A program made the position numbers and the translations under genes. Below, in pieces: positions 1,944-34,406 of a stretch of 64,000 nt of DNA. A model generated the notes under the pieces. That model saw nothing but the letters and a program-made list of their open reading frames with translations, ran no database searches and was not told the origin of the DNA. The stretch covers positions 1-64,000 of IMG/VR virus record IMGVR_UViG_3300025815_002670, one strand, 5' to 3'. This DNA is from a virus. The stretch's first letter is position 1, and each line of letters begins with the position of its first letter.

Positions 1944-2290
1944 GAGAACCTTATTTTATTGAAAACAGCAAGTTTCCTGTTTTCTTGTCCCATTTTGCCC
2001 CGATCGATATCTGGGCTGTTAGTTTTGGTATTTGGGTCTGGTGTGTTGGTGAACTTTCAGGCATTAGCAGAAGACACGAGACCATCCATTATTATCAACA
2101 GTTGGAACTGCTTTTTATTGGACAGTGGGTTCTTTATGGGTTATTCTATTTGATAGCCTTTGCCAAATATGGTGATGGTGCCATGGCTTATCGTAGAATC
2201 CCATTTGAACAAGAAGCTTATGGAAACGAGAAAGACGAATACTATTTATACAATAGAAAAGCGTTTGCATGGAGATCTTATAAGATATGA
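1940..2290 (+). CDS. Small membrane-associated zincin-like protein
   Basis: 116 residues. HETIH at 46-50 fits the HExxH zinc-binding motif, and an acidic IPFEQEAY segment near 87-94 could supply the third ligand. Two hydrophobic stretches, about 22-37 and 57-77, flank the motif, so the protein is probably in or on the membrane. Proteins of this size with HExxH are common in T4-related marine phages but, to my knowledge, lack an assigned substrate. Its start and stop each overlap a neighbour by four bases. The motif is seen directly; protease activity is inferred. Confidence 0.65.
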   Translation: MREPYFIENSKFPVFLSHFAPIDIWAVSFGIWVWCVGELSGISRRHETIHYYQQLELLFIGQWVLYGLFYLIAFAKYGDGAMAYRRIPFEQEAYGNEKDEYYLYNRKAFAWRSYKI

Positions 2291-3978
2291 GACTATTACT
2301 TGAAAAATGGGAAGCATACCTTGAAGAAGGCAAAGCAGACGATATTGTTGCAAAATATCCAAACCTTAAGCCTGCTTTTGACGCCGGAATAAAAAATCCC
2401 CAGCAACTTACCTGGATGTCAAAAAGGCTTGGCGACACTCCTATTGAAGATGCAATCGATGCAGTAAAAGAATTTGACAAAGCAAAGTCTGCTTTAAAAG
2501 CCAAAAAGAAAAATACTGATATCTATGGTTATAAAACTGTTCAAGATCTAAAAGACATTGTTCAATCCATTGGTCCATCAGGAAGTGAAAAAGATGCTCA
2601 ACTTGAAAAAGAAAGAATTCTTGTTGGCGAGTTTGGTGATTGGAAAGTTGAATTGCCGCTTACAACAGCGTCGGCTTGTCAAATTGGAAAAGGAACAGTG
2701 TGGTGCACTGCTGCAACAAAAGTTAAAAACATGTTTTTGCATTATACTGAACAGGGCTATATTCTTTTTCACATTACAAAAAGAGGTGCAGATCCAAGAA
2801 AAGATCCTACTGCGAAACTTAATGTTGGGTTTAAAGATGGAGAGGCCGTTTTAGATGGCAACACTGGTGGTTTATCTGTTGATGCAAAAAATATTGGTCT
2901 TAACACCAATAAATTACAAAAAATCCTCGGAGATCAGTTTGAGCCAATCATGCAAGCTATGCAGGCACAATCGGATGAATTAGGTGGCATTCATCCAGCA
3001 AAGGGCGAAAAAGAAGAAAGAGAAAGGAAACAAAGAGAAGAGACATTGAATGGGGCAGAGCGAGCCGCCAAAGATCCAGAACTAAATAAAGAATTTTACG
3101 AAAGAATCAAAGGACAGATGCCAGACCTTCGTATCACTTATTTAGAAAAACTTTTTGCTTCGGAGCCTATTCCTGAGGTTGTTGACTTTTATGTAGAAGA
3201 GGCTCTTAACGGTCCAGATGACAACGCCGGCATTCGGGTTCTTTCTACTCGTGCAAGGCCCGCTGCAATTGATCGTATTTTTGTTAAATCGAAAGAAATG
3301 GGTAAAGAAATTTCTGCTACTTTTGCTATTTTGCTGTCAAGGAGCCCATATATTCATGCCGAGGCTTTGGTCCGTTTAACAGAAATTCCTGCATTTATCA
3401 ATCATGATGACAGTAGTTCAGTTAGAATGAGTGTATTGGGTAATGATAAGTTGCCACTCAAAGTGGCTTTAAAATATCTTGATAAATACATCGAAGAAAG
3501 AAAGTCTCTGTCATCACAAGATCGCGACCGTGAGAGCTTTTTAAAACGAGTAGAAGCGGATAACGTGATTGAAGATATGGCATCAAGAAAAGACCTGCCA
3601 CCAGAAATGCTTAAAAAATTAGCAAAAACTTCTGATAGTGCCAAAGTTCTCTCTGATGTCGGTATGAATGTCAACACTCCTCCAGATGTTCTGCTTGACT
3701 TGGCAACGGAACGAATTTTTATGATTAAAATGGCAGTTGCTAAAAACCCTTCAAGTCCAGCAAATGTTTTGACAGCGCTATTAAAAAGTATTAAAAAAGA
3801 TGTTTTGGATGGTACTGGAAGAGGTAAACGACGAGCAGAGCAGCTTACAAGCGCTGTTCAAAATAACCCAAATTATACAATAGCGGGCAGAGTTAAGGCA
3901 GGTGCTTCGGATCTTCTTAGAAGACTAGTTAAAGAAGAACTTGAAGCCGTTCTTCGTGAAAAGGGCATAAAAAATTGA
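2287..3978 (+). CDS. Candidate head-cargo protein with WCT domain and LRV-like repeats
   Basis: 563 residues. Residues 1-14 form an amphipathic leader, MRLLLEKWEAYLEE, shared with the next genes and ending in an LxE site of the kind cut by T4-type prohead proteases. Around 127-175 lies GKGTVWCTA followed by FLHYTEQGYILFHI, a pattern I know from uncharacterised phage proteins. Residues about 240-270 are highly charged and helical. The C-terminal third has repeats ending in NVNTPPDVLLDLA and AKNPSSPANVLTALL, resembling leucine-rich-repeat-variant units. The protein ends in a basic/acidic helix (RRLVKEELEAVL). Function unknown; packaging in the head is inferred from the leader. Confidence 0.7.
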   Translation: MRLLLEKWEAYLEEGKADDIVAKYPNLKPAFDAGIKNPQQLTWMSKRLGDTPIEDAIDAVKEFDKAKSALKAKKKNTDIYGYKTVQDLKDIVQSIGPSGSEKDAQLEKERILVGEFGDWKVELPLTTASACQIGKGTVWCTAATKVKNMFLHYTEQGYILFHITKRGADPRKDPTAKLNVGFKDGEAVLDGNTGGLSVDAKNIGLNTNKLQKILGDQFEPIMQAMQAQSDELGGIHPAKGEKEERERKQREETLNGAERAAKDPELNKEFYERIKGQMPDLRITYLEKLFASEPIPEVVDFYVEEALNGPDDNAGIRVLSTRARPAAIDRIFVKSKEMGKEISATFAILLSRSPYIHAEALVRLTEIPAFINHDDSSSVRMSVLGNDKLPLKVALKYLDKYIEERKSLSSQDRDRESFLKRVEADNVIEDMASRKDLPPEMLKKLAKTSDSAKVLSDVGMNVNTPPDVLLDLATERIFMIKMAVAKNPSSPANVLTALLKSIKKDVLDGTGRGKRRAEQLTSAVQNNPNYTIAGRVKAGASDLLRRLVKEELEAVLREKGIKN

Positions 3979-4568
3979 TGAAACTCCTGCTTGAAAGATG
4001 GAACAAATTTCTTAAAGAGGAAAGCAATTCTTTACATCATACCTGCCCAGAAGCAGACCCTGCGGGCTTTAAGACTTATTACAGAATTGACAGGAATGAC
4101 CCGCCATCAATAGAACAGATTTTAAACTGTTGGGTTAAAAACGAAGCTGCTATTTATGATAGCAATGTAAACCATCTAAAACCAGCGCTTTATCAAACTG
4201 GCGATTTGACACCGTACAGAGAGTATCCAAGAGGATACTTAAGAAACCAACCAGAAACACAGCGCTATCAAGATCTGAAGAAAGACATTGAGGAAAATGG
4301 TTTTCGAGACCCAATTATAATTCTACTTGGTAAAAACGGAGTTGCTAAGATCGGTGAAGGAAATCACAGGCATGAAATTGCATTAGAACTTGGAATAGAA
4401 AAGACGCCAGTAAGGTTTGTTTTTTGGCAGAATGTTAGCAAACCATCAACACAAGAACTTGACAACCTCTATGGGGACAAAATACAGGAGCCGGAAGAAA
4501 AGCCCCGTATGTCTGATCAAGAATACGAAGAACTTATGGCTCTAATCTTTGGGAAGGAAAAACAATGA
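3978..4568 (+). CDS. ParB-like domain protein with shared N-terminal leader
   Basis: 196 residues from ATG 3978; a TTG three bases earlier is possible but less likely. The leader MKLLLERWNKFLKE has an LKE site at 12-14. Residues about 95-150 form a ParB/sulfiredoxin-like domain: YQDLKKDIEENGF, then DPIIIL, then GEGNHRHEIALELGI. ParB-like domains bind or cut nucleic acid, or hydrolyse CTP, depending on the family; which applies cannot be read here. The start overlaps the stop of the preceding gene (TGATG) and the end overlaps the next (ATGA). Because of the leader I infer that it may be packaged and injected. Confidence 0.72.
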   Translation: MKLLLERWNKFLKEESNSLHHTCPEADPAGFKTYYRIDRNDPPSIEQILNCWVKNEAAIYDSNVNHLKPALYQTGDLTPYREYPRGYLRNQPETQRYQDLKKDIEENGFRDPIIILLGKNGVAKIGEGNHRHEIALELGIEKTPVRFVFWQNVSKPSTQELDNLYGDKIQEPEEKPRMSDQEYEELMALIFGKEKQ

Positions 4569-5410
4569 AACTATTACTTGAAAAATGGAATAAATATGTT
4601 GTTTCTGAAACTGTTGGTTGGCAAGGTGGAGAACCACTCACTTCTGTTCAGACAGACAATGTTTTGTTTTTGAGCACAGAAGCTGATAATCGACCGGGTT
4701 TTGATTCTTTTCTTGAAAATCAACTCTTTTCAGATGCTGACATTTATCCATTATCGGATCACATTGAAGAGTTAGTGAGGCAGGTTCCTGCTCTTAGTAG
4801 TGAAAAAATAACTTCTATTGCTGGCGTAGGATCAAAAGGCGTTGCTTTAAGGCTAAAAAATGGCAATATCTTAAAGCTTTATGTTGGCGGTTGGCTAGAT
4901 CCCTTAGGCGCCGGCGAAGAAGAAGAGGAATTCTATGCTTCTGAAAAATCAAAGTTATTTGATAAATCTGGAAATATTTCTACATTACCAGTTTATGATC
5001 AGGGAACTGTTGATGTCCACGATGCAATGATAAAATACTCTGAGATGGCAGAAGTTATGCCATTTAATAAATACTTGGATTTTACAGGTCGTAACAGCGA
5101 AGAGGATTTGATAAATATAGAAGCGGCTATTGCAGCTATAAAGCGTGTTATTATAATGTATCAAATTCCAAGTTACTATGGTCCACCTGCAAACAGAGTT
5201 ACTTTACCACAAAGAATTGAAAGATCTATTAGAGCAATTAGAAGGTCTAGCCTAACCGGACCAGAGGTTAAAGGGCTTGCTGTCATGCTCAAATATGTTA
5301 TTACAGAATATGGCCCTGAATACTTAGAAGATTTTCACGAAGGAAACTTTGGTGTTGTTCAGCAGACAGTGGCAACAAATAAACCAGCATTTGTTCTTTT
5401 TGACCCGTAA
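4565..5410 (+). CDS. Kinase-fold protein with shared N-terminal leader
   Basis: 281 residues. The leader MKLLLEKWNKYVVSE matches those of the two preceding genes. After it I see the elements of a protein-kinase or aminoglycoside-phosphotransferase fold: a Gly-rich loop GVGSKGVALRL near 87-97, a lysine strand ILKLYVG near 102-108, an acidic helix EEEEEFYASEKSKL, a catalytic-loop-like EDFHEGNFGV near 256-265, and a terminal LFDP that could stand for the metal-binding DFG. The catalytic loop reads D-F-H-E-G-N rather than HxDxxxxN. AAGGA lies just before the start. It could phosphorylate host proteins after injection, but activity is inferred. Confidence 0.65.
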   Translation: MKLLLEKWNKYVVSETVGWQGGEPLTSVQTDNVLFLSTEADNRPGFDSFLENQLFSDADIYPLSDHIEELVRQVPALSSEKITSIAGVGSKGVALRLKNGNILKLYVGGWLDPLGAGEEEEEFYASEKSKLFDKSGNISTLPVYDQGTVDVHDAMIKYSEMAEVMPFNKYLDFTGRNSEEDLINIEAAIAAIKRVIIMYQIPSYYGPPANRVTLPQRIERSIRAIRRSSLTGPEVKGLAVMLKYVITEYGPEYLEDFHEGNFGVVQQTVATNKPAFVLFDP

Positions 5411-5421
5411 GTCTCATTGAA

Positions 5422-5431
5422 AACTATTTAT
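5422..5431 (+). promoter_or_regulatory. ACTAYTTAY box, copy 3
   Basis: AACTATTTAT lies in the 40-base gap after the kinase-like gene, 19 bases before the ATG at 5451, with a CGGAG ribosome site between. The spacing suits a phage -10-like promoter element. The 18 bases from 5423 match those at 1593-1610 at 16 positions. Confidence 0.5.
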
Positions 5432-5450
5432 TGCACGGAGAAAACTTATA

Positions 5451-7937
5451 ATGAAAGACCTTTTTGGTGGCTGGCGTGGTTTCCTCAAGACGCCCTCTGT
5501 TTTAGAAATAATCAAAGAAGACCTTATTAGAGAATTTAACCAAGCAGACAAAGAGAGTCTATTAGCAAGCGAAGCAGACTTTTCGGTTTCTTATGAAATT
5601 GAACTGGAAAGTAGGACTCCATTAGAAGGACGCGATTACGACGACTATCGTTATGATATGGAGCCAGAGCTTAACTATGAAGCAATGCGCGACTTTATCG
5701 AAGACATGGATTTTCTAGATCAGGTGCTAGAAGAAGATCTAGATAGTTTTCTTAATTATGATCTCAATATTCGAGACGTGAACGAAATGTTAACAGCATA
5801 TTTTGAGTTTGTTCACGGAAGAGAGCCTGCTGGTTCGGAACAAGAAGCAATGTTGCTTGGTCTTGCTATGGATTATAACGAATCCATAAAAGACACATAC
5901 GAACAATTTATCAATGCCATCTCATCGGTTGGAAAAGTAAACAAGCGCCAGCGCGGGGCAAAGATGGAGTGGGCCAAAAAGACAGGTCAATTTTTGAAAA
6001 AAGCGTTTGATTATGAAGACGACCCAGCACAACAAGATTTATTCCCGGATGCTGATGTCCGTGGGCAGAAAATGGTGGACTGGATTACGAAAAATCTTTT
6101 TGATTTAGAAGATCCAGGCGCTGCGCAAAAACGCGGTGAAGTTGGGATAGTTACTCTTCTTAGAAATGTTTATTCTAGTTTTTATTCGATTGGCGAACTC
6201 GAAGATGAGGTCGGAGAATTTTATAATGACTTTGCAAATAGCGGTGGCCGCTGGACGTATGTTAGTGGAGCTAGTGCAATTGGTTCTCCAAACGATGTGT
6301 TTAGAAATAAACTTTCTTATGTTTTAGCTGAAATGGTTGATAAAAAAGCAGAAGAAAAAGCAGATGAAAGGATGCGAGATACATTAGAAGATCCAGAGTC
6401 ATTTTTAAGAGACATTTATACAGATTATGAATTTGAAGAAAGATTTATGACCCAACCAGAACCAGAAGAGGAAGAAGAAGATGATTTGGACCTTCTTCGT
6501 GAGCATCTTCCTAACTTTATGGCAAGATATGAGAACGTTCTAAAATTTGAAGAAGATGCGTCTCTACAAAATGGTGTTGAGTTCTCTATGGATAACCCTC
6601 CTTATCTTACTGGTCTTAATGAAGCTATTGAATTTCTTAAAATATTCTTTGAGGATTTCAATAACCAGACCAACTGGGTTATGTCTGATCGAACTGGCCT
6701 TCATACAAACGTAGGCTACATCCCAACTGTCGCACATGAAGACAGAGACCTGTTCAAAGGAATGCTTTTCCTAAACGACGATATGGCCAAAAGAGGCTTC
6801 GAGAAGCGCAAAAACTCTCGCTGGGCTATGGACATTAAGAGAGACGCTTTGGATATGGTTTCCAAAGGCTTTGGTGATGCTAAGGTAAACATCGGAGAAA
6901 TAATCAAAGATGAAGAGAAAATGGAAGAGCTAAGGCAGCGACTCTCCAATTCAGTAGAAAATTCCGTTCAAGGAAAATATGTCAAGTATCTCGGTATGAA
7001 CATCACTTATTTAGAAAATATGGATTATATTGAATTTAGATATCCTGGGCAAGACGAACCAACTTATCAGAGTATGGTTAACGCTACCCTTTACTATGCC
7101 CACCTTATAAAAACAATCAATGACGAAGACTACAAGAAAAAGGAATACATTACAAAACTTGTTGGTTTCTTCAACAACCTTCGTGCCAAAGATCTAGAAA
7201 CAGACAGACAAGATCTAAAAACTGCTAGAAAGTTTTTCAACCTTCCTCTCGGCACACAGTTTGTCTATGCACCAGATACGAGTATTGGCTCACCATCAGC
7301 AAATGATGGTTTAAGGGCTTGGATTAAAGTTTATTATGAAAATGAATTAAAGCCGGAACTTCTAAAGAAAGCAGGGCCGGATGGTGTTGTTCAGTTTAAT
7401 CAAATGAACATTACAATTGGTGAAGTACCTGATAAATTGGAAAGTCTGATCTTTAGCCAACTCGGCTATGGCGTTAGAATTCCTATTTTTTATGATGGGT
7501 TAAAGAAAAAATTAAACAGACCTGACCTTAAAGGAAAAGATAAATATCTCATTAAGTGGATTTTTCCAAGAGAACAGAAAAGCGGAAAGCCAGACTTTAG
7601 GGTAGCAACTCAAAGTATGGGAATTTTTGTAAGAAGTTTAAACAAATTTCATCTATCAGATCCAGAATATGCTATTAAGAAGTCAGGTATGGAAGTTGAC
7701 TTGAGCGACCCCCTTGAACTACCTGAAATGGGTTACAAGGCTCTGCAAGCGATTCGCGACTTAGGTTGGAGGAGAATGGCGGATAAACAAGACGAAGGCG
7801 AAGAACTTGACGAACTCAAGTTCACGTTTGCTTCCATGAATAATCCTGTCTATGTTAAATTCCTAAGATGGTACAAAGAGCAATACAGAAAGTGGAAGCG
7901 TGGCGATCTTGAATATATGATATCTGGGGGTGAGTGA
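5451..7937 (+). CDS. Large amidoligase-like protein
   Basis: 828 residues. The start MKDLFGGWRGFLK is a weaker version of the leader of the upstream genes and lacks the LxE site. Three segments recall the glutamine-synthetase/GCS-fold amidoligases: FSVSYEIELES near 44-54, TGLHTNVGY near 418-426 (family pattern GLHVHxG), and MDYIEFRYPG near 524-533 (family pattern EFR). Members join amino groups to carboxylates using ATP. The usual GLHVH is changed to GLHTN, which may affect metal binding. Long acidic coiled regions, including a run of Glu near 340, separate the motifs. Target unknown; modification of a host peptide or of cell wall is possible. Family call moderate. Confidence 0.6.
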   Translation: MKDLFGGWRGFLKTPSVLEIIKEDLIREFNQADKESLLASEADFSVSYEIELESRTPLEGRDYDDYRYDMEPELNYEAMRDFIEDMDFLDQVLEEDLDSFLNYDLNIRDVNEMLTAYFEFVHGREPAGSEQEAMLLGLAMDYNESIKDTYEQFINAISSVGKVNKRQRGAKMEWAKKTGQFLKKAFDYEDDPAQQDLFPDADVRGQKMVDWITKNLFDLEDPGAAQKRGEVGIVTLLRNVYSSFYSIGELEDEVGEFYNDFANSGGRWTYVSGASAIGSPNDVFRNKLSYVLAEMVDKKAEEKADERMRDTLEDPESFLRDIYTDYEFEERFMTQPEPEEEEEDDLDLLREHLPNFMARYENVLKFEEDASLQNGVEFSMDNPPYLTGLNEAIEFLKIFFEDFNNQTNWVMSDRTGLHTNVGYIPTVAHEDRDLFKGMLFLNDDMAKRGFEKRKNSRWAMDIKRDALDMVSKGFGDAKVNIGEIIKDEEKMEELRQRLSNSVENSVQGKYVKYLGMNITYLENMDYIEFRYPGQDEPTYQSMVNATLYYAHLIKTINDEDYKKKEYITKLVGFFNNLRAKDLETDRQDLKTARKFFNLPLGTQFVYAPDTSIGSPSANDGLRAWIKVYYENELKPELLKKAGPDGVVQFNQMNITIGEVPDKLESLIFSQLGYGVRIPIFYDGLKKKLNRPDLKGKDKYLIKWIFPREQKSGKPDFRVATQSMGIFVRSLNKFHLSDPEYAIKKSGMEVDLSDPLELPEMGYKALQAIRDLGWRRMADKQDEGEELDELKFTFASMNNPVYVKFLRWYKEQYRKWKRGDLEYMISGGE

Positions 7938-9544
7938 TGGCTGTTTGTAAACTGCAATATTACCAGTCTTATTTTTCTTATTACACCAATCAAACCTCTA
8001 ATAATGCTTCGGTCAATACTTACTTCAATCCATTTGACGATCAGCATTATAGTGGTGGTGTGATCAATAGTGCTTACGCACCTGTCTCTTCCGACGATAT
8101 TTCATACGATTCTAGCACTGGTAGGGTAACTTTTTCTAATAGTGGAACTTACGCAGTTATTTTTAATCCTTCTTTAAACCTAATCGCTGATGGCGGCTCT
8201 GGTCAAGGTTTTGTTGACGCAAGAATAGCTGTAAATGGTTCTACTGTTCTTGATGCCTCCGGTAACAATTATTATCACAATACCTCTCTGACTCCTAGAC
8301 AGCATGTATTTTCGTGTTTAGTGGAAGTTGATTCTGATGATTATTTAGAGGTTTTTGTAAGAACGATAACAACTTCTAGAGCACTAAACTCTAATAGTGG
8401 CACTTCTTTAGCAATTTTTAGAGTTGTTGGTTCTTATGGTCACATAAAGTACACTGGAAACGATAATGGCAGCAATACTAGTGTTTTAATAGGCGATAAT
8501 ATTGGTGCTGGTAAAGTTACTGTGTTAACAGGAAGTGCGATGACATATTCTTCAAATGTGTTTACACCTCCTTCTGGTGCGAAAAAATACTTAATGTTTT
8601 CATCAATTTCAGCGCAGCAGCAAACAGGTGGCACTGAAATACCACTAGATATTGATATGTTAGAAGGAGGAAGCGAAATTGGAGACTCCACACTAAGTGT
8701 TCAGAGTAACCAAGATCCTTATGTTTTAGCCTTCTCATTACTAAATGAGTTTGATGGCACACAAACCGCTATCTCAAGAATCACGACACCAGCTACTAAT
8801 AGTTTTATTTTGAATAAGGCAACTACATTTAGTTTGATAGATATTTCTACTGAAGAAGCAGTAACGGGTGCTTTTCTTAGTCTATCCTGCAATAACGACT
8901 CTAATGGCTTAGGAAGTGGAGATCAAAATTGCTTTGATGACAGTAATTGGACAAGTCTTTCTGTTACAAACCATGTAACGGCGAGTGGGATCACTTATAC
9001 TTCCTCTAATGGAAAGTTTACAGTCGAGAACGCGGGCATTTATTTGTTTATTTGCCACCTAGTGGTTGACCACACAACAACGTCAGACATTTCATTCTAT
9101 GTTAAACAAGAAGGAACGGAAATTTATAGCAATGCTTACAGTCTAAACCCTAACTGGACCCCTAGAGATCTCTCAATTGCAATTGTTGTAAATTGCTCTG
9201 CTAGTGATGAATTTGAATTCGGCATAAAAGGCGGGGCGGCGGGCACGATTTTTAATGCAGGTAGTTCAATTTCGATCTTTAAAATAAATTATGGAACTCT
9301 TCCTGCATTAGATTTAAGTGGTCGCGGGCTCACTCTAGCAACGGAAACCACCCCGCAAGCACAGATCGCAGACGATTTTGACCTAAAAACCTTCGACATC
9401 GACACTCTAACGCCCCAAAGAAGCCGCTTGACCGACCAAGTTCCGTTTGTTTTAGGTGTTCCAGGCCCACTTTCCCTTCGTGGTCGCTGTTTTGGTGGAA
9501 CAGAAGAGCCTCCAATCGTCAAACCGGGCGATAAAAAGAACTAA
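7937..9544 (+). CDS. Virion protein with tandem C1q/TNF-like beta domains
   Basis: 535 residues; ATG 7937 preferred over GTG 7934 because GGGGGTGA lies at 7926-7933. Three related beta-sandwich-like segments are seen, each with a pattern such as ISYDSSTGRVTFSNSGTYAV, repeated near residues 55-70, 200-215 and 350-365, followed by TPRxxxF/L and polar strands. This spacing recalls C1q/TNF jelly-rolls used in phage fibres and head decorations. The C-terminal 80 residues are Pro-rich and unlike the repeats. Serine, asparagine and threonine are abundant, as in fibre proteins. Head fibre or receptor binder are the leading options. Confidence 0.6.
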   Translation: MAVCKLQYYQSYFSYYTNQTSNNASVNTYFNPFDDQHYSGGVINSAYAPVSSDDISYDSSTGRVTFSNSGTYAVIFNPSLNLIADGGSGQGFVDARIAVNGSTVLDASGNNYYHNTSLTPRQHVFSCLVEVDSDDYLEVFVRTITTSRALNSNSGTSLAIFRVVGSYGHIKYTGNDNGSNTSVLIGDNIGAGKVTVLTGSAMTYSSNVFTPPSGAKKYLMFSSISAQQQTGGTEIPLDIDMLEGGSEIGDSTLSVQSNQDPYVLAFSLLNEFDGTQTAISRITTPATNSFILNKATTFSLIDISTEEAVTGAFLSLSCNNDSNGLGSGDQNCFDDSNWTSLSVTNHVTASGITYTSSNGKFTVENAGIYLFICHLVVDHTTTSDISFYVKQEGTEIYSNAYSLNPNWTPRDLSIAIVVNCSASDEFEFGIKGGAAGTIFNAGSSISIFKINYGTLPALDLSGRGLTLATETTPQAQIADDFDLKTFDIDTLTPQRSRLTDQVPFVLGVPGPLSLRGRCFGGTEEPPIVKPGDKKN

Positions 9545-9546
9545 AA

Positions 9547-9789
9547 ATGTTCATTGAAAGCGAAACTTTCGGAAAAAAAGACAAATTTAAGGTTGGAGAT
9601 CTCGTTTGGTGGAATAAAATTGGTAAAAATATGTCTGGTGTCGTGCAAAATCTATTTTTGAAAGATGTCGGAGGTCGAAAAGTTGCTTTTGCGATAGTTT
9701 TAGACTTCAATGACCAGACACACAAAGAAATTTTGTGTATAAACTTGAAAAAAATGCCTTATCAAACAAATACAATGGAAGAAAACTAA
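9547..9789 (+). CDS. Small SH3-like conserved phage protein
   Basis: 80 residues. The segment FKVGDLVWWNKIGKNMSGVV near 14-33, followed by further short strands, is typical of a small SH3-like barrel and resembles short proteins common in T4-related marine phages. No catalytic residues are apparent. It starts two bases after the preceding stop. Function unknown. Confidence 0.65.
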   Translation: MFIESETFGKKDKFKVGDLVWWNKIGKNMSGVVQNLFLKDVGGRKVAFAIVLDFNDQTHKEILCINLKKMPYQTNTMEEN

Positions 9790-9797
9790 TTATTACA

Positions 9798-10598
9798 ATG
9801 AAATATCGCATCATCAACAACTCCAATCTTGATATGAACGGAATGAAACCACTTTTGAACAGTTTTCTTCCGTTTGCGCGTCAAAAAATGGGCTTTTCTA
9901 AGCCTGTTTGCATAAAATTCGTTCACGACGATCAAAATGCAGCAAACCCACTTGGAAAAACTGCCTTTTATGACCCAAATGACTACTCAGTGACGCTTTT
10001 CACGACTGGAAGACACCCAAAAGACATTATGAGGTCGCTTTCGCATGAGTTGGTGCATCACAAGCAAAACTGCGATGGAAAATTTGATCAAAAGCCTACT
10101 TATGGCGAAGATTATTTCCAAAATGACGATTATTTGAGAGAAATAGAGCGCGAAGCCTATGAAAAAGGAAATATGTGCTTTAGAAACTGGGAAGAACAGT
10201 ACAGAGCACAGTTGCAAGAATCTACTTATTACCAAAAAGGAGAAACCAAAATGAAACTCAACGAGTGGAAGAACAAGGAAATGTTCGAGCGTCTTACCGA
10301 GGCTTACGGCTACGGAAAGATGAAGGAAGAAGAAGTAGTTGAAGAGTCAAACTGCATGGGAGAAGGCGAACTTGGCGAGTCAAACTGCATGGACGAGGGC
10401 ATGTGCCCTACATGCGGTATGAGACCTTGCGGCTGCCCTATGATGGAAGAGGAAGCCAAGCCAGATTTCCTAGATCTTGATAAGGATGGCAACAAAGAAG
10501 AGCCAATGAAGGATGCTGCTGCTTCTGCAAAGAAGATGAGCGAGTCCCAAATTCGTTCCCTTGTTCGCGAAGCCCTCAAGAGAACACTCGCCAAGTAA
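9798..10598 (+). CDS. Zinc metallopeptidase with acidic Cys-rich tail
   Basis: 266 residues from ATG 9798; an in-frame ATG at 9735 lies inside the preceding gene and is rejected. SHELVHHKQ near 78-86 carries HExxH, and REIEREAYEKG near 114-124 could give the third zinc ligand. Residues 152-266 differ: they begin MKLNEWKNKEMFERLTE, hold two SNCM segments and a CPTCGMRPCGCP cluster, and end SESQIRSLVREALKRTLAK. This second part has its own ribosome site and start and may also be made alone. The protein could mature virion proteins or act after injection. HExxH is clear; the substrate is unknown. Confidence 0.75.
   Translation: MKYRIINNSNLDMNGMKPLLNSFLPFARQKMGFSKPVCIKFVHDDQNAANPLGKTAFYDPNDYSVTLFTTGRHPKDIMRSLSHELVHHKQNCDGKFDQKPTYGEDYFQNDDYLREIEREAYEKGNMCFRNWEEQYRAQLQESTYYQKGETKMKLNEWKNKEMFERLTEAYGYGKMKEEEVVEESNCMGEGELGESNCMDEGMCPTCGMRPCGCPMMEEEAKPDFLDLDKDGNKEEPMKDAAASAKKMSESQIRSLVREALKRTLAK
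10251..10598 (+). CDS. Possible nested product of the metallopeptidase gene
   Basis: An ATG at 10251, in frame with the metallopeptidase, is preceded by AAGGAG at 10237-10242 with 8-base spacing, a better ribosome site than that of the full gene. It would give a 115-residue protein starting MKLNEWKNKEMFERLTE, which resembles the leader of the 2287-5410 genes and has an LTE site at 15-17. The product would hold the CPTCGMRPCGCP cluster and the basic C-terminal helix. Separate production, with a role as internal head protein, is an inference. Confidence 0.45.
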   Translation: MKLNEWKNKEMFERLTEAYGYGKMKEEEVVEESNCMGEGELGESNCMDEGMCPTCGMRPCGCPMMEEEAKPDFLDLDKDGNKEEPMKDAAASAKKMSESQIRSLVREALKRTLAK

Positions 10599-10609
10599 GG
10601 AACAACAAA

Positions 10610-12580
10610 ATGACCTCTATTCTTTCCGAAGGTGGTGTCGCTGGACATATGAACCACCTTTATGACAACCCAGAATTAACATTTGCAGAGATGAAAAACA
10701 TCTTTCAAGCAGCCTCAAGTGGAGAACTTGATGGAACAGAGAAGACTGATGGCCAAAACCTTCAGTTATCCTACGATGTTAAGACTGGAACTGCCCGTGC
10801 TGCCCGAAACAAGGGCAACATTAAGAGTGGAGGTCTAACTGCTGCCGGTCTTGCTGAGAAATTCGGAGGTCGTGGACCACTAGAAAAAGCTTTTACCGAA
10901 GCATTTGCTGCTTTTGAGCAAGTTGTTAGTCAAATGTCAGAGGAAGAGCAGATCGAGATCTTTGGCCCAAACACAAATATCTACTACAACGCTGAGGTTC
11001 AGGATCCAAGATCCGCTAATGTTATCAACTATGACCTTCCCACTTTGACTATTCACCGAGTTGGGCATAATGAATATGACCGTGAGACGGGTACCCCAAC
11101 AGGAAGGGATGTTTCCTCTAACGCTTTTAAGTTAGCAAATGCCTTAGAAAGCCAACAAACAGGAAGAGAGGTCGGAAAGTTCCTTGTTCAAATGAACGCT
11201 ATTCGTAAGTTAAGCGCTTTGAGCGATGACAAAGCAGTTGCTGTCGCCAACGCTCGCCTTGAAAAAGTTATTTCTGATGCTGGAATCTCTGACAACCAAA
11301 CTGTCGCTGAATATATGGTTTCTCGCGTAAGCGATATGGTTGATAAGAGAATAGACCTACCATTAGACGTTAAAAAAGAACTTATGAAGCGCATTTTTAA
11401 GGAAGAAGGTGCGAGTCTTGTAAAGGTTCGCAAGTTAATCCCGGCTGGTGATACCCAGATGCGCAAGGCTGTTGACGAGTTAGTCAAGGCTGCTGGAAAT
11501 TTGAAGAAGGCTGCTATTTCTCCAGTGGAAGAGATCGTGCACGACTTCTCTGTAGAGATGCTTAAAGGGCTTGAGAGCGCGTTCATTTTAGATAACAAGG
11601 CAGAGGTCGGAAGACTTCGTGCGGAACTTCAGAAGGCTATTGAGGCTATTGAGGCGAGTGGTTCTGATGAGGCTATGGCGATCCTACAGAAGCAGATGAG
11701 CAAACTCAAGTCTATCGAAGGTGTCTCAACAGCAGCCGAAGGTTTTGTATTTGATTATGATGGTGTAACCTATAAGTTCACAGGAAACTTTGCACCAATG
11801 AACCAGTTGCTCGGACTTTTCAAATATGGTCGTGGTAATGTTCCCGCTCTCCGCAAGTTGGACGAGGAAGAACAGACCGGAGGACAGACAGTTGCGGTTG
11901 TTCCTGGGGCCTTTAAGCCTCCTCACAGGGGTCATCTTGAAATGGTCAAACATTACGCAAATCTTGCTGACAAGGTTGTTGTTATGGTTTCACCACTTCC
12001 AAGAAGAACACCAAGTGGTCGCGATATTGATTTTAGTGTTTCTAAGGCAATTTGGAATTTATATTTAAGAGATGCTGGACTTTCTAACAAAGTTGAAGTT
12101 ATTCGATCTCCTGTAAATTCTCCGGTTTCAGCAACTTACCAGTTTGTTGCAAACGAGGACAACAAACCAGAGATGGCTCAGCCGGGTGATATTGTTATTC
12201 CTGGTTGCAGCACTAAGGGCGGTGACGAGGCTCGTTTCAAGGCTAACTTTGAAAAGTATGCCCGTGAAGGTGTTATGATAGAGGATCCTATTAGTTGTGC
12301 CTTTGTCGCGTCCTCTGATGACGCTCTGAGCGCTCGTGATTTTAGGGCGGCTCTTGATGCCGGCGCTGGCTTAGAAGACTTCATACCGGACGAGACGAGC
12401 CCTGAGGAGGTTCTTTCTATCCTGGGTGTGGAGCCTGGACCGGAAGTGCCTTTGGATGAAATGTCCTCTATGGCTGCTGGGTCTGTCGCTGGCTACTCTG
12501 GAAGCCCTGTTAGAAAGAGAACTGACGAGGTTGTTGAAGAGGTTCTAAACTATTTAATAAGTAAGGGAGTCTTAAAATGA
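10610..12580 (+). CDS. Ligase-like nucleotidyltransferase fused to a cytidylyltransferase-like domain
   Basis: 656 residues with two nucleotide-transfer modules. The N-terminal part looks like the covalent nucleotidyltransferase superfamily (DNA/RNA ligases, capping enzymes): EKTDGQN at 44-50 would hold the reactive lysine, EGFVFDYDG at 377-385 fits motif IV, and YKFTG just after fits motif V. A helical insert of about 200 residues separates them. The C-terminal part has VPGAFKPPHRGHLEMV, with the HxGH signature at 439-442 of NMN adenylyl- and cytidylyltransferases. The combination suggests work on RNA ends or on a nucleotide cofactor; which one is not visible. The stop overlaps the next start. 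Confidence 0.75.
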   Translation: MTSILSEGGVAGHMNHLYDNPELTFAEMKNIFQAASSGELDGTEKTDGQNLQLSYDVKTGTARAARNKGNIKSGGLTAAGLAEKFGGRGPLEKAFTEAFAAFEQVVSQMSEEEQIEIFGPNTNIYYNAEVQDPRSANVINYDLPTLTIHRVGHNEYDRETGTPTGRDVSSNAFKLANALESQQTGREVGKFLVQMNAIRKLSALSDDKAVAVANARLEKVISDAGISDNQTVAEYMVSRVSDMVDKRIDLPLDVKKELMKRIFKEEGASLVKVRKLIPAGDTQMRKAVDELVKAAGNLKKAAISPVEEIVHDFSVEMLKGLESAFILDNKAEVGRLRAELQKAIEAIEASGSDEAMAILQKQMSKLKSIEGVSTAAEGFVFDYDGVTYKFTGNFAPMNQLLGLFKYGRGNVPALRKLDEEEQTGGQTVAVVPGAFKPPHRGHLEMVKHYANLADKVVVMVSPLPRRTPSGRDIDFSVSKAIWNLYLRDAGLSNKVEVIRSPVNSPVSATYQFVANEDNKPEMAQPGDIVIPGCSTKGGDEARFKANFEKYAREGVMIEDPISCAFVASSDDALSARDFRAALDAGAGLEDFIPDETSPEEVLSILGVEPGPEVPLDEMSSMAAGSVAGYSGSPVRKRTDEVVEEVLNYLISKGVLK

Positions 12581-13416
12581 AAGACAGAAACGACTTTATT
12601 GCTGAGCAACTTTTAAGAGAAAATATCAGAAAGGCTTTAACAACTGTTAAGACCAAGAAGGCCCAAAAGGCACTCAACGAAGAGACTGAACTTCGTGGTG
12701 TTATTCGTAAGCTTCTAAAAGAAAAGATTGCTGTTGGCGATGAAGTCCCTCATCAGAAGACTGGAATCAACAAACTAAGGGACACTCTTAAGAAAATTGT
12801 TCCACAGATCCGTGATGACTATTTGAACTTAACCACTGACGAGTCTCAGAGAAAGTCTTATATCGCTCACCTTGTTAATGGTATTGATAATCTATTAGCA
12901 CCTATTAACACTAATATAGATGCTCCTGAGCCAAGTGACAAGCAAGATCTTGAAGAAGAGATCGAGATCAGTGTTAGTGATGAAAAAGCTGCTGATGACG
13001 AAAACTTCATTGATATTGGAGATGATATTCTTCCATCTGGTGAAGAAGAGGAAGATGAAGAAGGAATTGAAATTTCCGATGAAGAAGAATTAGTAACTCG
13101 TGGTTTAGATACTGATGAAAATGATGAAACTGGAAGAAATGCTGCTATTGAAACTTTCAAGCAAATCCAGTCTGCTATTGTTACTGACTTTAGTGTATTA
13201 GCAAATGATGAAGATCGTGAGATCTATCATGACTATCTAAAAACTAATATTCTTCTTTGGAGAGATAGATTTGAAGAAGTCCTTACAAAGAACTTACCTG
13301 AACCTACAACACCAGAATATGAAGAAGAGAAGGCTGGTGTTCAACCAGGAGAAGATAAAGAAGATACTGGTGGAGAAGATAATTTAGAAGATCTATTAGA
13401 GATTATAGATTTATAA
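12577..13416 (+). CDS. Acidic protein with T4-like capsid-targeting leader
   Basis: 279 residues. The start MKDRNDFIAE closely resembles the capsid-targeting sequence of T4 internal proteins as I recall it (MKTYQEFIAE), which the prohead protease removes after the Glu. Further helices follow (ENIRKAL, LRGVIRKLLKEK). The middle and C-terminus are strongly acidic, with runs of Glu and Asp near 120-175. An internal head or core-scaffold protein fits the composition. GGGAG lies 7 bases upstream of the start, and ATGA overlaps the preceding stop. No enzyme motif seen. Confidence 0.55.
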   Translation: MKDRNDFIAEQLLRENIRKALTTVKTKKAQKALNEETELRGVIRKLLKEKIAVGDEVPHQKTGINKLRDTLKKIVPQIRDDYLNLTTDESQRKSYIAHLVNGIDNLLAPINTNIDAPEPSDKQDLEEEIEISVSDEKAADDENFIDIGDDILPSGEEEEDEEGIEISDEEELVTRGLDTDENDETGRNAAIETFKQIQSAIVTDFSVLANDEDREIYHDYLKTNILLWRDRFEEVLTKNLPEPTTPEYEEEKAGVQPGEDKEDTGGEDNLEDLLEIIDL

Positions 13417-13771: not shown

Positions 13772-14107
13772 GGGGGTGCACTGGATTCGACAGGGTAAAT
13801 GAAGAGAATAGTGCAGGCAGTCGTGATGACTCAAAAAATCAAAAACAAATTAGTTGCCAACAACAACGCACACTTTGATTCCGTCCGCCTAGCGGCTTAA
13901 TCAAGGAGGCTGATCAGAGCCTTCTATCCAATCTGGTCAACACAACAGACAAGTTGTAAAAATCAAAACAATTCAACGCAACAGGGCGGTGAGCGTTGAT
14001 TTACAACCGCCTACCTTCTCTAGTTTGGATGGTAAAAACTAGACAAGCCTGTGGATGACTTGAATTGAATTTTATTCTGGACGCGGGTTCGATTCCCGCC
14101 ACCTCCA
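13772..14107 (+). ncRNA. ssrA: Transfer-messenger RNA (tmRNA), one-piece, phage-encoded
   Basis: The 5' end reads GGGGGTGCACTGGATTCGAC, the standard tmRNA opening. The acceptor stem GGGGGTG (13772-13778) pairs with CACCTCC (14100-14106), with discriminator A at 14107; CCA is not encoded. The T arm is GCGGG, TTCGATT, CCCGC (14083-14099). AGAATA (13805-13810) pairs with TATTCT (14073-14078) to give helix H2. After TTAGTT the resume codon GCC at 13856 opens a 14-codon tag, ANNNAHFDSVRLAA, ending at TAA 13898-13900. A GGCGGT/ACCGCC stem lies downstream. The LAA end is the usual ClpXP/ClpAP degron, so the RNA looks functional in trans-translation. Confidence 0.95.
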
Positions 14108-14131
14108 TTTCTGTCTTTTCTCTAACAGAAA
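14108..14131 (+). other. Hairpin just after the tmRNA
   Basis: TTTCTGT (14108-14114) pairs with ACAGAAA (14125-14131) across a 10-base pyrimidine-rich loop. No T-run follows, so it is a poor terminator. It may help define the tmRNA 3' end for processing, since no CCA is encoded. Confidence 0.4.
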
Positions 14132-19048: not shown

Positions 19049-20317
19049 ATGAGTGAAAAGAAGACGATCCTAGTTATCTCGGATCACCCGTTAGCGCCCT
19101 CTGGTGTTGGAACACAGACGAACTACATTATCCAGACACTATTGAGAACCGGTCGCTACAAGTTTATTTGTTTAGGTGGTGCGGTAAAGCATCAGAACTA
19201 CCAGCCCCAGAACATCCAGGGAGACGCATGGGATGACGGCGATTTCGTCGTGCATCCCGTTGACGGTTATGGAAATGCTGACATTATTCGTTCAGTCCTA
19301 TGGACGGAGAAGCCAGATATGCTTTGGTTTATGACCGACCCGCGTTTCTACAACTGGCTTTGGCAGATTGAAAACGAGATTCGTGCCCTCGTCCCAATGG
19401 TCTATTACCATGTTTGGGACAACTACCCACCGCCAAAGTTCAATGCAAAGTGGTATAACTCAACAGATGTCATCGCATCTATTTCCAAGGTCACGCACGA
19501 CATTGTAAGCCAGGTCGCCCCGGATGTTGAGAACCACTACATCCCTCACGCGGTCAATGGCGAGATCTTCCGTAAGTTGGACAGCGAGGTCATTGAGGAG
19601 TTTAAGAACACAAACTTCCCAGACCACAACGACCGGATGATCTTTTTCTGGAACAACCGTAACGCCCGCCGCAAGCAGTCCGGCACGCTCATCAACTGGT
19701 TCAACAAGTTCGCCGAGCGAGTTGGTCCAGACAAGGTTTGCCTCATTATGCACACCGATCCAAAGGATCCAAATGGTCAGGATCTAGAGGTCATCCTCAA
19801 GGACTACGACATTGCCGACGGTCGCATTGTTATCTCCAGAAACAAGATGCCAGCCGAAGGTCTTGCTTTAATGTATAACATGGCTGACTGCACCATCAAC
19901 ATTTCAGATGCCGAAGGCTTTGGTCTTGCCACCCTTGAGTCTCTTTCTTGTGGAACTCCCATCATCGTCAACATGACCGGTGGACTACAGGAGCAGGTCA
20001 CGGACGGAGAGGAGTGGTTTGGTATTGGCCTTGAGCCGTCCTCTAAGGCCCTTATCGGCTCACAGACAGTTCCATACATCTACGAGGACCGTTTGAGCGA
20101 GGAACAAGTTGTAGGGGCCTTAGAGCGCTTCTACAACCTATCACAAGAAGAGCGTGATGCAATGGGCGAGAAGGGTATGGCTCATGTCCAGGCTAACTAC
20201 AACTTTGAGGACTTTACGACTCGTTGGGTTGAACTAGTTGACGACATTGTTGAGCGTCTTGGATCATGGGAAAACAGAAAGGGCTACAAGGCTTGGGAAC
20301 TTAAGGAGGCAATGTGA
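19049..20317 (+). CDS. Family 4 glycosyltransferase
   Basis: 422 residues with a GT-B fold pattern. The N-terminus has SDHPLAPSGVGTQTNYI, a typical acceptor-side start. The C-terminal donor domain contains EGFGLATLESLSCGTPIIV near 288-306, the EX7E-type signature of GT4 enzymes. It would use a nucleotide sugar to extend a glycan in the cytoplasm. GC-richer codon use than the genes from 21.5 kb on suggests that it belongs to the phage core. It is coupled to a second glycosyltransferase by ATGTGA. Confidence 0.88.
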   Translation: MSEKKTILVISDHPLAPSGVGTQTNYIIQTLLRTGRYKFICLGGAVKHQNYQPQNIQGDAWDDGDFVVHPVDGYGNADIIRSVLWTEKPDMLWFMTDPRFYNWLWQIENEIRALVPMVYYHVWDNYPPPKFNAKWYNSTDVIASISKVTHDIVSQVAPDVENHYIPHAVNGEIFRKLDSEVIEEFKNTNFPDHNDRMIFFWNNRNARRKQSGTLINWFNKFAERVGPDKVCLIMHTDPKDPNGQDLEVILKDYDIADGRIVISRNKMPAEGLALMYNMADCTINISDAEGFGLATLESLSCGTPIIVNMTGGLQEQVTDGEEWFGIGLEPSSKALIGSQTVPYIYEDRLSEEQVVGALERFYNLSQEERDAMGEKGMAHVQANYNFEDFTTRWVELVDDIVERLGSWENRKGYKAWELKEAM

Positions 20318-21582
20318 AAAAGACAGTTTTAGTAAGAGGGCCGGCCCTCACACAGTCAGGCTACGGCGAGCACACCCGCTTTGTTCTTCGCGCCCTAAGG
20401 ATGCGAGAGGACGAGTTTGACATCCACATCCTTCCCACAAAATGGGGAGAGACTGGCTGGCTCGCTATTCCAGGCGAGGAGCGAGAGTGGATCGATCAGC
20501 AGGTAAACAAGGCAACAGTCCATCTCCATCAGAATCTTCCTTACGACATTTCTGTCCAAGTCACCATCCCCAATGAGTGGCAAAAGATGGCAGCGGTCAA
20601 CATCGGTGTCACAGCGGGCATCGAGACAAACAAGGTCGCCCCTGTGTGGATCCAGCAGGCCAACCTGATGGACAAGATCATTACGATTTCTGAACACTCC
20701 AAGGCCGGCTTTGGTGCAGTCTATTCAGGCCAGCACCCGCAGACCGGGCAGCAGATTCATCTTGCTAACCAAACTCCTGTGGAGATCGCTCACTACCCAG
20801 TAAAGACTTTTGACGAACTACCTGAACTAGACCTAAACCTTGAGCACGACTTCAACTACCTTGCAGTCGCCCAATGGGGTCCACGAAAGAATATCCAAAA
20901 CCTTATTCGTTGGTTTGTAGAAGAGAACCACGACGAGGAAGTTGGTCTTATTGTAAAGATGAGCTTAAAGAATAATTCTGTTGTCGACCGCGAGTTTGCC
21001 CTCCAGCAAATCGAAAACTCTATCCCCGTTATCCCCGACCGCAAGTGCAAGGTCTACCTTCTACACGGGGACATGTCTGAGAGCGAAATGCATGCCCTCT
21101 ACAAGCATCCTAAGGTCAAGGCAATGGTTTCGCTCACTCACGGCGAAGGCTACGGTCTACCCCTATTTGAAGCCGCCTACAGCGGTCTTCCTATTATTGC
21201 CCCTGGCTGGTCTGGTCAGTGCGACTTCCTTTACATGCCATGGGAGTCCAAGTCAAAGAAGAATAAGGACAAGAAGAAGGCGATGTTTGCCGAGGTTGAT
21301 TTCACTCTTGGGCCTGTCCCTGACGCTGCTCTGTGGCAAGGCGTCATTGAAAAGGGGATGTCTTGGTGCTACCCAACCGAGGGCTCTTTCAAGCTTCGCA
21401 TGCGCCAAGTCCGAAAGAACTATGATAAGTGGCGGGCAAAGGCCGAGGAACTTCAGGCTTGGGTTTGCGAAGAGTTTGCTTGGGATAAGAAGCATGAGGA
21501 ACTTTCTATATCTATTTGGGATAGAAAAGAGTATATTAAACTTCAGGAAGAAATTGATAGTTTATTAGAAGATCTACTATGA
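20314..21582 (+). CDS. Second GT-B glycosyltransferase
   Basis: 422 residues from GTG 20314, with AAGGAGG just upstream. RGPALTQSGYGEHTRFVL at the N-terminus and THGEGYGLPLFEAAYSGLPI near 268-287 fit GT4-type enzymes. It is the same length as the gene before, so the pair may be an old duplication or act in sequence. The last 30 or so codons, from about 21490, turn AT-rich and match the following island rather than the rest of the gene, which hints at a recombination join inside this reading frame. Confidence 0.85.
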   Translation: MKKTVLVRGPALTQSGYGEHTRFVLRALRMREDEFDIHILPTKWGETGWLAIPGEEREWIDQQVNKATVHLHQNLPYDISVQVTIPNEWQKMAAVNIGVTAGIETNKVAPVWIQQANLMDKIITISEHSKAGFGAVYSGQHPQTGQQIHLANQTPVEIAHYPVKTFDELPELDLNLEHDFNYLAVAQWGPRKNIQNLIRWFVEENHDEEVGLIVKMSLKNNSVVDREFALQQIENSIPVIPDRKCKVYLLHGDMSESEMHALYKHPKVKAMVSLTHGEGYGLPLFEAAYSGLPIIAPGWSGQCDFLYMPWESKSKKNKDKKKAMFAEVDFTLGPVPDAALWQGVIEKGMSWCYPTEGSFKLRMRQVRKNYDKWRAKAEELQAWVCEEFAWDKKHEELSISIWDRKEYIKLQEEIDSLLEDLL

Positions 21583-22430
21583 AACCTAAAATTTATTTCA
21601 TCGCGGACATGTTTGCAGAAGATTATATTGGAGGAGCAGAGCTAACAACTAAAGCCATTATGCAGGCGTGCAAGAACTATGAAATTGAAAAAATACATTC
21701 TCATAAGTTAACTCTAGAAATTTTAGAAAATAATAAACAAAATCATTTTATTGTTTGTAATTTTTCAAATTTAGATGATAAGAATAAGATTTATATGTGC
21801 AAAAACAATCATTACTCTATTATTGAGTATGATTACAAATTTTGTAAATATAGATCAACTGTTAAACACAAGCAGGCTGAAGGGATTGAGTGTAATTGTG
21901 TTGAACAAATGCATGGAAAGATCAATAGTGCTTTTTATGGATATGCTTCAAAAATATGGTTTATGAGTCAAGAACAGAAAAACATATTTATAGATAATGT
22001 TGTGACAATAAAGAAAGAAAATTGTAGTGTGCTAAGTTCAGTTTTTTCAGATGGAGATCTTAGATTCATTCAGTCGTTAAAAGACAATGAAAAAAATGAT
22101 AAGTATTTAATCTTAGATTCTAACTCATGGATTAAAAACACTACAGGATGTATTGAATATGCAATCAGTAACAATTTAGGCTATGAGCTAATAAAGAACT
22201 TGCCTTATCATGAGCTTCTGATTAAGATGTCTACATCAAGAGGCTTGATCTTTATGCCAACAGCCCCAGACACTTGTCCAAGATTTGTTATAGAAGGCAA
22301 GCTTCTAGGACTAAAACTACATTTAAATGATTTTGTTCAGCATAAAGACGAATCTTGGTTTTTAAATCCAGAAAGCACCTATGAATATTTGATTAAAAGA
22401 GTAGAATATTTTTGGAGTTTTTATGAATAA
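21579..22430 (+). CDS. Glycosyltransferase-like protein
   Basis: 283 residues. The start KIYFIADMFAEDYIGGAELT resembles the N-terminus of GT-B enzymes. The C-terminal part has YHELLIKMSTSRGLIFMPTAPDTCPRFVIEGKLLGLKL, the position where GT4 enzymes carry the EX7E motif, here with a single clear Glu (VIEGKL). It is shorter than the usual 350-400 residues. Its target sugar is unknown. It is the first complete gene of the AT-rich island. Confidence 0.65.
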   Translation: MKPKIYFIADMFAEDYIGGAELTTKAIMQACKNYEIEKIHSHKLTLEILENNKQNHFIVCNFSNLDDKNKIYMCKNNHYSIIEYDYKFCKYRSTVKHKQAEGIECNCVEQMHGKINSAFYGYASKIWFMSQEQKNIFIDNVVTIKKENCSVLSSVFSDGDLRFIQSLKDNEKNDKYLILDSNSWIKNTTGCIEYAISNNLGYELIKNLPYHELLIKMSTSRGLIFMPTAPDTCPRFVIEGKLLGLKLHLNDFVQHKDESWFLNPESTYEYLIKRVEYFWSFYE

Positions 22431-23118
22431 AAAAACTTTGGTAGTTATGGGAAATGGACCATCTTTAAAAGATATTGATTTTTCACTTTTAAAACATGTT
22501 GATACATTCGGACTTAATTCGGCTTATAGAGCATATCGCAGAATGGACTGGTGGCCAACATATCATGGATGTTTTGATTATAGAGTTACAGACAACCACA
22601 AGGAAGAGTTTATTAACTTGATAGACTCTAAAAAAATACAAAAACATTTCTATATTAGAAACATTAGTTCTGCATCTAATTTTCAGTTTGTTAATCTTCT
22701 AGCTTATGGTTCTACAGATAAGACAAACAATTCTATCCAAGACTTCAATAATTTTCATGATAATGGAAATTCTGGAGCGAATGCCTGTTCTGTAGGGATA
22801 TGCTTAGGGTACAAAAAGATAATACTGCTTGGTGTTGATTGCAATTATATTGAATTTGTAGATGGATGTAAAAAAGACGGACCAGGAGGTCTAGTGATGG
22901 AAAAAACACCAGACAAAAATCCAAACTATTGGTTTGATGACTATCAGCAAAAAGGCGATGAATATAATGTACCTGCTGGACTCTCTTTCCATATGCCTAC
23001 ATGGAACATGTTAGCTTATAGAGCAGCGCACGCAGGTGTTGAAATTATTAACTGTAGTCCCATTACAAATCTTAGATGTTTTAGGAGAATAAACTTACTG
23101 GAAGCGTTAGATGAATAA
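22423..23118 (+). CDS. GT42/DUF115-like sialyltransferase-type protein
   Basis: 231 residues. VVMGNGPSLKDIDFSLL at 7-23 matches the GNGPSL motif of Campylobacter-type sialyltransferases (GT42) and of DUF115/MAF proteins that transfer nonulosonic acids. YKKIILLGVDCNY near 127-139 and a conserved His in LSFHMPTW near 185 fit this fold. Together with a CMP-sugar synthetase-like gene at 28650 this suggests transfer of a CMP-activated acidic sugar. Activity and donor are inferred. Confidence 0.7.
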   Translation: MNKKTLVVMGNGPSLKDIDFSLLKHVDTFGLNSAYRAYRRMDWWPTYHGCFDYRVTDNHKEEFINLIDSKKIQKHFYIRNISSASNFQFVNLLAYGSTDKTNNSIQDFNNFHDNGNSGANACSVGICLGYKKIILLGVDCNYIEFVDGCKKDGPGGLVMEKTPDKNPNYWFDDYQQKGDEYNVPAGLSFHMPTWNMLAYRAAHAGVEIINCSPITNLRCFRRINLLEALDE

Positions 23119-23518
23119 AATATTTTCAAAAATAATTCCTAATAAGTTAATACACACTGTTTTTAAAACAAAAGACATACAAAATAGAATTGATATTTGT
23201 CCTCCTGAGCAGTTCCTTCAGTTAGCAGTACTGAGAATGGATAAAGGTAAAACTTTCAAGCCTCATAAACATATATTTAAAAAAGGTGAAGAAAATGTAA
23301 TTGCTCAAGAGTCATGGACAGTTATTCAAGGATCAGTTAAAGTTTTTTTATATGATCTTGATGACACGATTGTATATACTGATATCCTTAAGCCAGGAGA
23401 CTGTTCTATAACTTTTTACGGTGGACATAACTATGAAATTTTAGAAGATAACACTTTGGTTTATGAACACAAAACAGGTCCGTACAAAGGACAAAAATTG
23501 GATAAAAAGTTTATATGA
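23111..23518 (+). CDS. Cupin protein of the WbuC type
   Basis: 135 residues. PHKHIFKKGEENVIAQE near 52-68 and WTVIQGSVKVFLYD near 70-83 form the two cupin strands, with His ligands at 53 and 55. C-terminal HNYEIL offers the third. Small cupins like this occur in polysaccharide clusters as isomerases or as proteins of unknown role. It overlaps both neighbours. Confidence 0.7.
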   Translation: MNKIFSKIIPNKLIHTVFKTKDIQNRIDICPPEQFLQLAVLRMDKGKTFKPHKHIFKKGEENVIAQESWTVIQGSVKVFLYDLDDTIVYTDILKPGDCSITFYGGHNYEILEDNTLVYEHKTGPYKGQKLDKKFI

Positions 23519-31607: not shown

Positions 31608-31610
31608 ATA

Positions 31611-34405: not shown

Positions 34406-34406
34406 T

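Follow-up and report, generated by a model that had tools for sequence, protein, structure and literature searches.

Proteins carried inside phage heads are known from few model phages, usually through virion proteomics. In bacteriophage T4, the first ten residues of the internal protein IPIII are enough for packaging, and mutants of this capsid targeting sequence (CTS) indicate that residues 4 and 7 mainly serve targeting and residues 8 and 10 govern processing (PMC9026906). The protease gp21 cuts after L/I-X-E, and a protein altered at residue 10 can still enter the head, remaining unprocessed (PMC9026906). Fusions to the T4 CTS get packaged and delivered (PMC9026906, PMC3012670).

Here we describe a leader in uncultured viruses whose bearers are, judging from several sequence features, probably packed in the phage head as cargo. 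The window, that is, the whole stretch of DNA analysed, covers the first 64,000 bases of a record from an uncultured virus; this record, 77,670 bp long, is a fragment without head genes.

Leader-bearing genes of the window

Near-identical leaders had been proposed for three consecutive genes (2287, 3978 and 4565; Table 1) in a sequence-only reading of this DNA, and all three are indeed present. They are real and far above chance. These genes account for three of the seven pairs of look-alike N-termini among the 79 genes of the record, with dissimilar bodies, and rank first, fourth and fifth when the genes of the window are scored with the leader profile. The L-x-E end is perfect in 2287 (next residue Gly) and 3978 (next residue Glu) only, the V-S-E of 4565 being displaced by one residue. 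The ATG of 3978 lies 3 nt inside an ORF started by TTG. The three genes overlap stop on start by 1-4 bp and so look translationally coupled.

Table 1. Features of the window around the leader-bearing genes
Feature	Position	Strand	Remarks
Leader-bearing protein 1, 563 aa, WCT motif and LRV-like repeats	2287..3978	+	
Leader of protein 1, MRLLLEKWEAYLEE	2287-2328	+	predicted cut after Glu14
Leader-bearing protein 2, 196 aa, ParB/Srx-like domain at ~67-148	3978..4568	+	
Leader of protein 2, MKLLLERWNKFLKE	3978-4019	+	predicted cut after Glu14
Leader-bearing protein 3, 281 aa, kinase/APH-like	4565..5410	+	GVGxxG, LKLY, DFHEGNFGV, LFDP
Leader of protein 3, MKLLLEKWNKYVVSE	4565-4609	+	site VSE, one residue late
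Amidoligase-like protein, 828 aa, degenerate leader MKDLFGGWRGFLKT (5451-5492)	5451..7937	+	phrog_7469 amidoligase, E 0.0037
Metallopeptidase-like gene, conserved, leaderless, downstream edge of cargo locus	9798..10598	+	
Cytidylyltransferase-like protein, conserved, leaderless, downstream of cargo locus	10610..12580	+	
Acidic family starting MKDRNDFIAE, rejected as leader	12577..13416	+	

In the relative L002, the leader is present on each of the three genes (its proteins are 68% identical to protein 1 and 92% identical to protein 2), and two further, different genes carry it. A distant relative of protein 1, in L008, bears the leader as well. For protein 3, all PDB matches listed belong to the kinase superfamily, with low TM-scores, and since the pLDDT of its AlphaFold model is only 53, the kinase assignment relies on motifs, together with a weak match of the fold.

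The weaker leader proposed for gene 5451 stands in part. It keeps the Trp and Phe; the site lacks Glu and any (L/I)xE, with LKT instead. As the homologue in another virus, L097, begins with the complete leader MKLLFENWRKYIAE, the version found in the window represents a degenerate form.

Several other features of the window deserve mention. C1q/TNF-like beta domains are encoded at window positions 7937-9544 and at L002:8229-9833. Their bodies vary, overall identity being 39%, but the C-terminal stretch (TPQAQIADDFDLKTFDIDTLTPQRSRLTDQVPFVLGVPGPLSLRGRCFG) is nearly identical, as if this end served as a second type of attachment tag. A complete phage-encoded tmRNA (13772-14110, + strand; Rfam RF00023, 112.8 bits, tag peptide ANNNAHFDSVRLAA) lies just downstream of genes 12577 and 13418. 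A long glycan-pathway block with glycosyltransferase, sugar-nucleotide dehydratase/epimerase, cytidylyltransferase, SIS-isomerase and methyltransferase-like genes spans 19049-35231.

Two leader classes and their match to the T4 CTS

Search for more bearers of this leader revealed a large family. With two patterns, at least 364 non-identical proteins in at least 149 unrelated body clusters were found in uncultured viral contigs. A degenerate leader pattern occurs in at least 119 stretches of the viral contig collection; in bacterial and archaeal genomes totalling 257 billion bases, the same pattern gave two matches, neither of which opens a listed ORF, and these are therefore taken as chance. 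Up to eight leader-1 genes are found per 15-kb stretch.

The consensus of this leader (leader 1), derived from a profile over 107 unrelated body clusters, is MKLLLENWRKYLNE, or M-K-L-L-(L/F)-E-N-W-R-x-(Y/F)-(L/I)-x-E. Trp8 is present in 100% of clusters, Phe/Tyr11 in 96%, Leu/Ile12 in 90% and Glu14 in 85%, positions 10 and 13 being free. Conservation drops off after Glu14 and little of it is left from about residue 15-16 onward. Because positions 12 and 14 were preset in our first pattern, Glu14 was also read in two subsets free of this bias, where it occurs in 39 of 57 and 77 of 109 cases. Short variants retain the core alone; examples are MNYKWNKFLTE, which precedes NUDIX bodies, and MLKKWKQFLSE, which precedes a HAD body. 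The core W..[FYH][LIV].E was also counted in 4057 genes that lack the full leader: their first 20 residues contain it 65 times, and every later bin of 20 residues has 0-3 occurrences.

The bodies behind leader 1 match, among others, NUDIX, P-loop kinase, protein kinase, tRNA nucleotidyltransferase, DUF192, GDSL, zeta-toxin, RNase T, HAD and ParB-like families, and the majority have no known function. The leader itself carries no name in Pfam or PHROGs, and no published description of it was found in the literature searched. Its exact form was found in none of 50,697 phage records of isolates, a 14-mer being near the detection limit of tblastn.

When sequences are aligned from the Glu, Y4, F7, I8 and E10 of T4 coincide with W8, F/Y11, L/I12 and E14 of the leader, the most conserved positions of that stretch. 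A profile of the seven-position leader core ranked IPIII and IPII first and second among the 49 T4 proteins fetched. The proposal of a T4-like leader ending at a gp21 site is thus borne out at family level, by a motif in register with the mutationally mapped CTS residues.

A second leader class was detected in the same record. Five consecutive genes at 71,853-73,775 (L001:13854-15776) start with MKITKxQLRxIIKEEL; they fall outside the window and so were absent from the list of the sequence-only reading. In two scans, this class (MKITKxQLKxIIKEEL) yielded 568 non-identical proteins in 411 body clusters, with a median length of 115 aa. It has Ile-x-Glu at positions 12-14, and about half of its members possess a second (L/I/V/M/F)xE ending at residue 21 or 22. 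Yet another repeated start, M(A/S)(R/K)K.LLTE.E(L/I/V)R, was seen on acidic proteins of about 200-300 aa (G010 record 176114, G004 154927, G022 63029) and may be a third leader or a single conserved family.

Prohead protease and head operon

A gp21-type protease was to be expected in these viruses if the leader is processed as in T4. In the window's own record, a 77.7-kb fragment, no S77 protease was found. PF03420, the Pfam family to which T4 gp21 belongs, was found in every one of the 12 leader-1 records that reach 130 kb, and of the 14 records picked for leader 2 or for the 12577 family, 13 have it. Large contigs chosen by arbitrary patterns contain it in 2 of 15 cases overall and in 1 of 4 at 130 kb or more (leader-1 versus arbitrary contigs at this size, Fisher 0.007).

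Nine head modules show the order terminase, portal, two small genes, membrane protein, protease and more small genes. In six of them (L132, L133, L134, L135, L137 and L138), leader-1 or leader-2 genes stand directly before or after the protease, a position whose T4 counterpart is occupied by core genes 67 and 68. The two leader classes substitute for one another at this place. Two major capsid proteins carry KELLRE|AST at residue 59, comparable to SFLTE|A at residue 65 in T4. The S77 proteases of modules L131-L139 have a common N-terminal LLRE(Y/F)..(L)C..G.C.D(L/V/I)LTExEK, in which (L/I)LTE may be a self-processing site.

Avoidance of the protease site

A protein body exposed to a protease cutting after (L/I)xE is expected to avoid this tripeptide. 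We measured the ratio of (L/I)xE to its mirror motif Ex(L/I), which serves as a control for composition. This ratio is 0.70 for leader-1 bodies and 0.71 for leader-2 bodies, compared with 1.01 for other genes of the same loci (1389 clusters). The effect was replicated in clusters unused at first, both for leader 1 (0.73; 47 clusters, bootstrap P 0.004) and for leader 2 (0.70; 171 clusters, P<0.001). Between leader proteins and their leaderless homologues, the latter cleaned of short leader variants, the ratios over aligned parts only are 0.72 and 1.08.

The depletion is specific in character. Nothing comparable was found in leader-protein bodies for (V/F/M)xE, (L/I)xD, (L/I)xQ, (L/I)xS or (L/I)xxE, and small dips were seen for (L/I)xK and (L/I)E. 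In an open scan of 1010 combinations of residue pair and spacing, LxE was the most depleted (z -5.4), followed by IxE (z -4.3). As a positive control, (L/I)xE occurs exactly once in each of T4 IPI, IPII and IPIII, and this single site is the one in the leader. The depletion in leader bodies amounts to about 30%, is not total as in the T4 internal proteins, and is a property of the family that cannot be read for single proteins.

These numbers bear on whether leader proteins might be scaffold or core components degraded during maturation, like T4 gp22, instead of retained cargo. Some leader genes adjoin the protease in the head operon, and gp21 of T4 cleaves the core proteins gp67 and gp68, as such a role would have it. 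However, scaffolds are rich in (L/I)xE (16 and 23 sites in those of these phages, at least 14 in T4 gp22), whereas leader bodies avoid it, which argues for retained cargo; moreover, the bodies include folded enzymes. We regard general degradation as unlikely, and it could apply to a minority of leader proteins, such as L137:4978.

It is very unlikely that the leader is a docking tag for some other phage or host machine (polymerase, ribosome, membrane or tail) unrelated to the head. An amphipathic N-terminal helix by itself fits many roles and the bodies do resemble metabolic and host-takeover enzymes, but from such a tag one would not expect the terminal (L/I)xE, the resemblance to the leaders of T4 internal proteins, the link with S77 proteases or the avoidance of (L/I)xE in the bodies.

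Two further starts read earlier as leaders were dropped. The nested start at 10251 lies in-frame inside the conserved metallopeptidase-like gene and is still fused to it in L002. The MKDRNDFIAE start of 12577 belongs to a family whose N-terminal conservation continues past the Glu (RNxLIAEQLIREHIRKRI), so that no leader can be separated from the body; this family does not avoid (L/I)xE, with 137 sites against 143 mirror sites.

A probable cargo locus and possible DNA-level spread

In 42 loci with leader-1 genes and a homologue of the metallopeptidase-like gene (window 9798-10598), most leader genes on the same strand lie upstream of the latter: out of 99 such genes, 74 are within 6 kb upstream and five within 6 kb downstream.

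Codons are also more alike among leaders than among bodies (0.59-0.65 versus 0.43), which holds within and between contigs and suggests that leaders may spread by DNA-level recombination too. In the window, the leaders of 2287 and 4565 share a long stretch of identical DNA, and in 3978 other codons encode the same residues. Part of leader identity may thus reflect shared DNA ancestry and not selection. That the leader is mainly a recombination seed, 5' DNA shared for cassette swapping and devoid of protein function, would account for the codon identity and for the stretch common to 2287 and 4565, but is extremely unlikely given the different codons of 3978, the conservation of W8, F/Y11, L/I12 and E14 while positions 10 and 13 vary, the short variants that retain the protein core alone, and the avoidance of (L/I)xE in bodies. 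Recombination seeding may act in addition to the protein function.

Discussion

We consider it very probable that the 14-residue leader is a capsid-targeting propeptide removed by a gp21-type protease and that the bodies are head cargo, probably ejected. The helical end of the leader (W8, F/Y11) would dock the protein onto the prohead scaffold core, and the gp21-type S77 protease would cut after (L/I)12-x-Glu14, releasing the body within the head. The freed body would remain there with the DNA, with probable ejection into the next host. The leader would act as a module fronting many small proteins and enzymes that are unrelated to each other (NUDIX, kinases, HAD nucleotidases, nucleotidyltransferases, nuclease-like folds, and many of no known function), their genes would cluster in a hypervariable cargo locus, and leader class 2 would supply the same compartment.

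The steps differ in strength. Head targeting and removal of the leader after (L/I)xE are strongly supported by the match to the CTS motif, the S77 proteases in relatives, the position in the head operon and the avoidance of (L/I)xE in bodies of two leader classes. These features, like the family itself, are seen in the sequences, whereas targeting, cleavage, packaging and injection are inferred. Injection and effector function are plausible by analogy with T4 (IPI, Alt) and given the enzyme-like bodies. The leader-targeted head packing put forward by the sequence-only reading is well supported for the family through CTS match, protease, operon and avoidance; in the window it loses 10251 and 12577 and retains 5451 in degenerate form. 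The gp21-type protease it called for is found in all leader-1 records of at least 130 kb and not in the 77.7-kb fragment itself. No virion proteomics for these viruses was found.

It seems likely that a whole clade of large T4-type phages, as yet uncultured, has a modular code for packaging, with at least two interchangeable leaders, by which the head is filled with a fast-changing set of hundreds of distinct proteins, including many enzymes; avoidance of the site would then find cargo from sequence alone. Leader and independent footprint, the avoided head-protease site, together point to cargo in viruses that have never been grown. This would yield several hundred candidate injected proteins, many without known function, and would give an objective cargo test for any phage with a known prohead protease. 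The generality of the T4 internal-protein strategy becomes directly testable, as a cultured relative is available.

That relative, Flavobacterium phage vB_FspM_immuto_2-6A, has the nearest cultured terminase (46%). It resembles the viruses described here in having an annotated prohead core serine protease and repeated N-termini of its own; its leader differs in being longer and without Trp. Two repeated leaders are discernible (NC_055915 102294, 102880, 103806, 113188, 117631, 118632; L303, L308): three genes start with xFxLxxFL(V/T)ENKLT, among them one annotated as cobalamin adenosyltransferase, and three with an MKKSxLxxIIKE-like sequence. The literature searched gave no packaging data for this phage. 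In Microcystis phage Mel-JY01, a near terminase relative, the protease is present and such a leader was not found.

SPN3US and phiKZ, according to published accounts (PMC10052503, PMC7411985), likewise pack many proteins in the head, process them with the prohead protease and eject them into the host, but they belong to another phage lineage.

The closest counterpart is found in T4 itself, and the leader system appears to work like the T4 CTS, agreeing with it at family level in tests at the sequence level. As in T4 IPI, IPII, IPIII and Alt, a short N-terminal leader is common to unrelated bodies; the core [WY]xx[FY][LI]xE is shared (MKTYQEFIAE in T4 IPII and IPIII), and so is the S77 protease, here in leader-bearing relatives. 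In contrast to T4, these viruses are uncultured, with terminases less than 50% identical to those of any isolate searched. The leader has 14 residues instead of 10, an MKLLLEN segment being added and Trp replacing Tyr, and it is accompanied by a second leader class and by far more cargo families, many of them enzyme-like.
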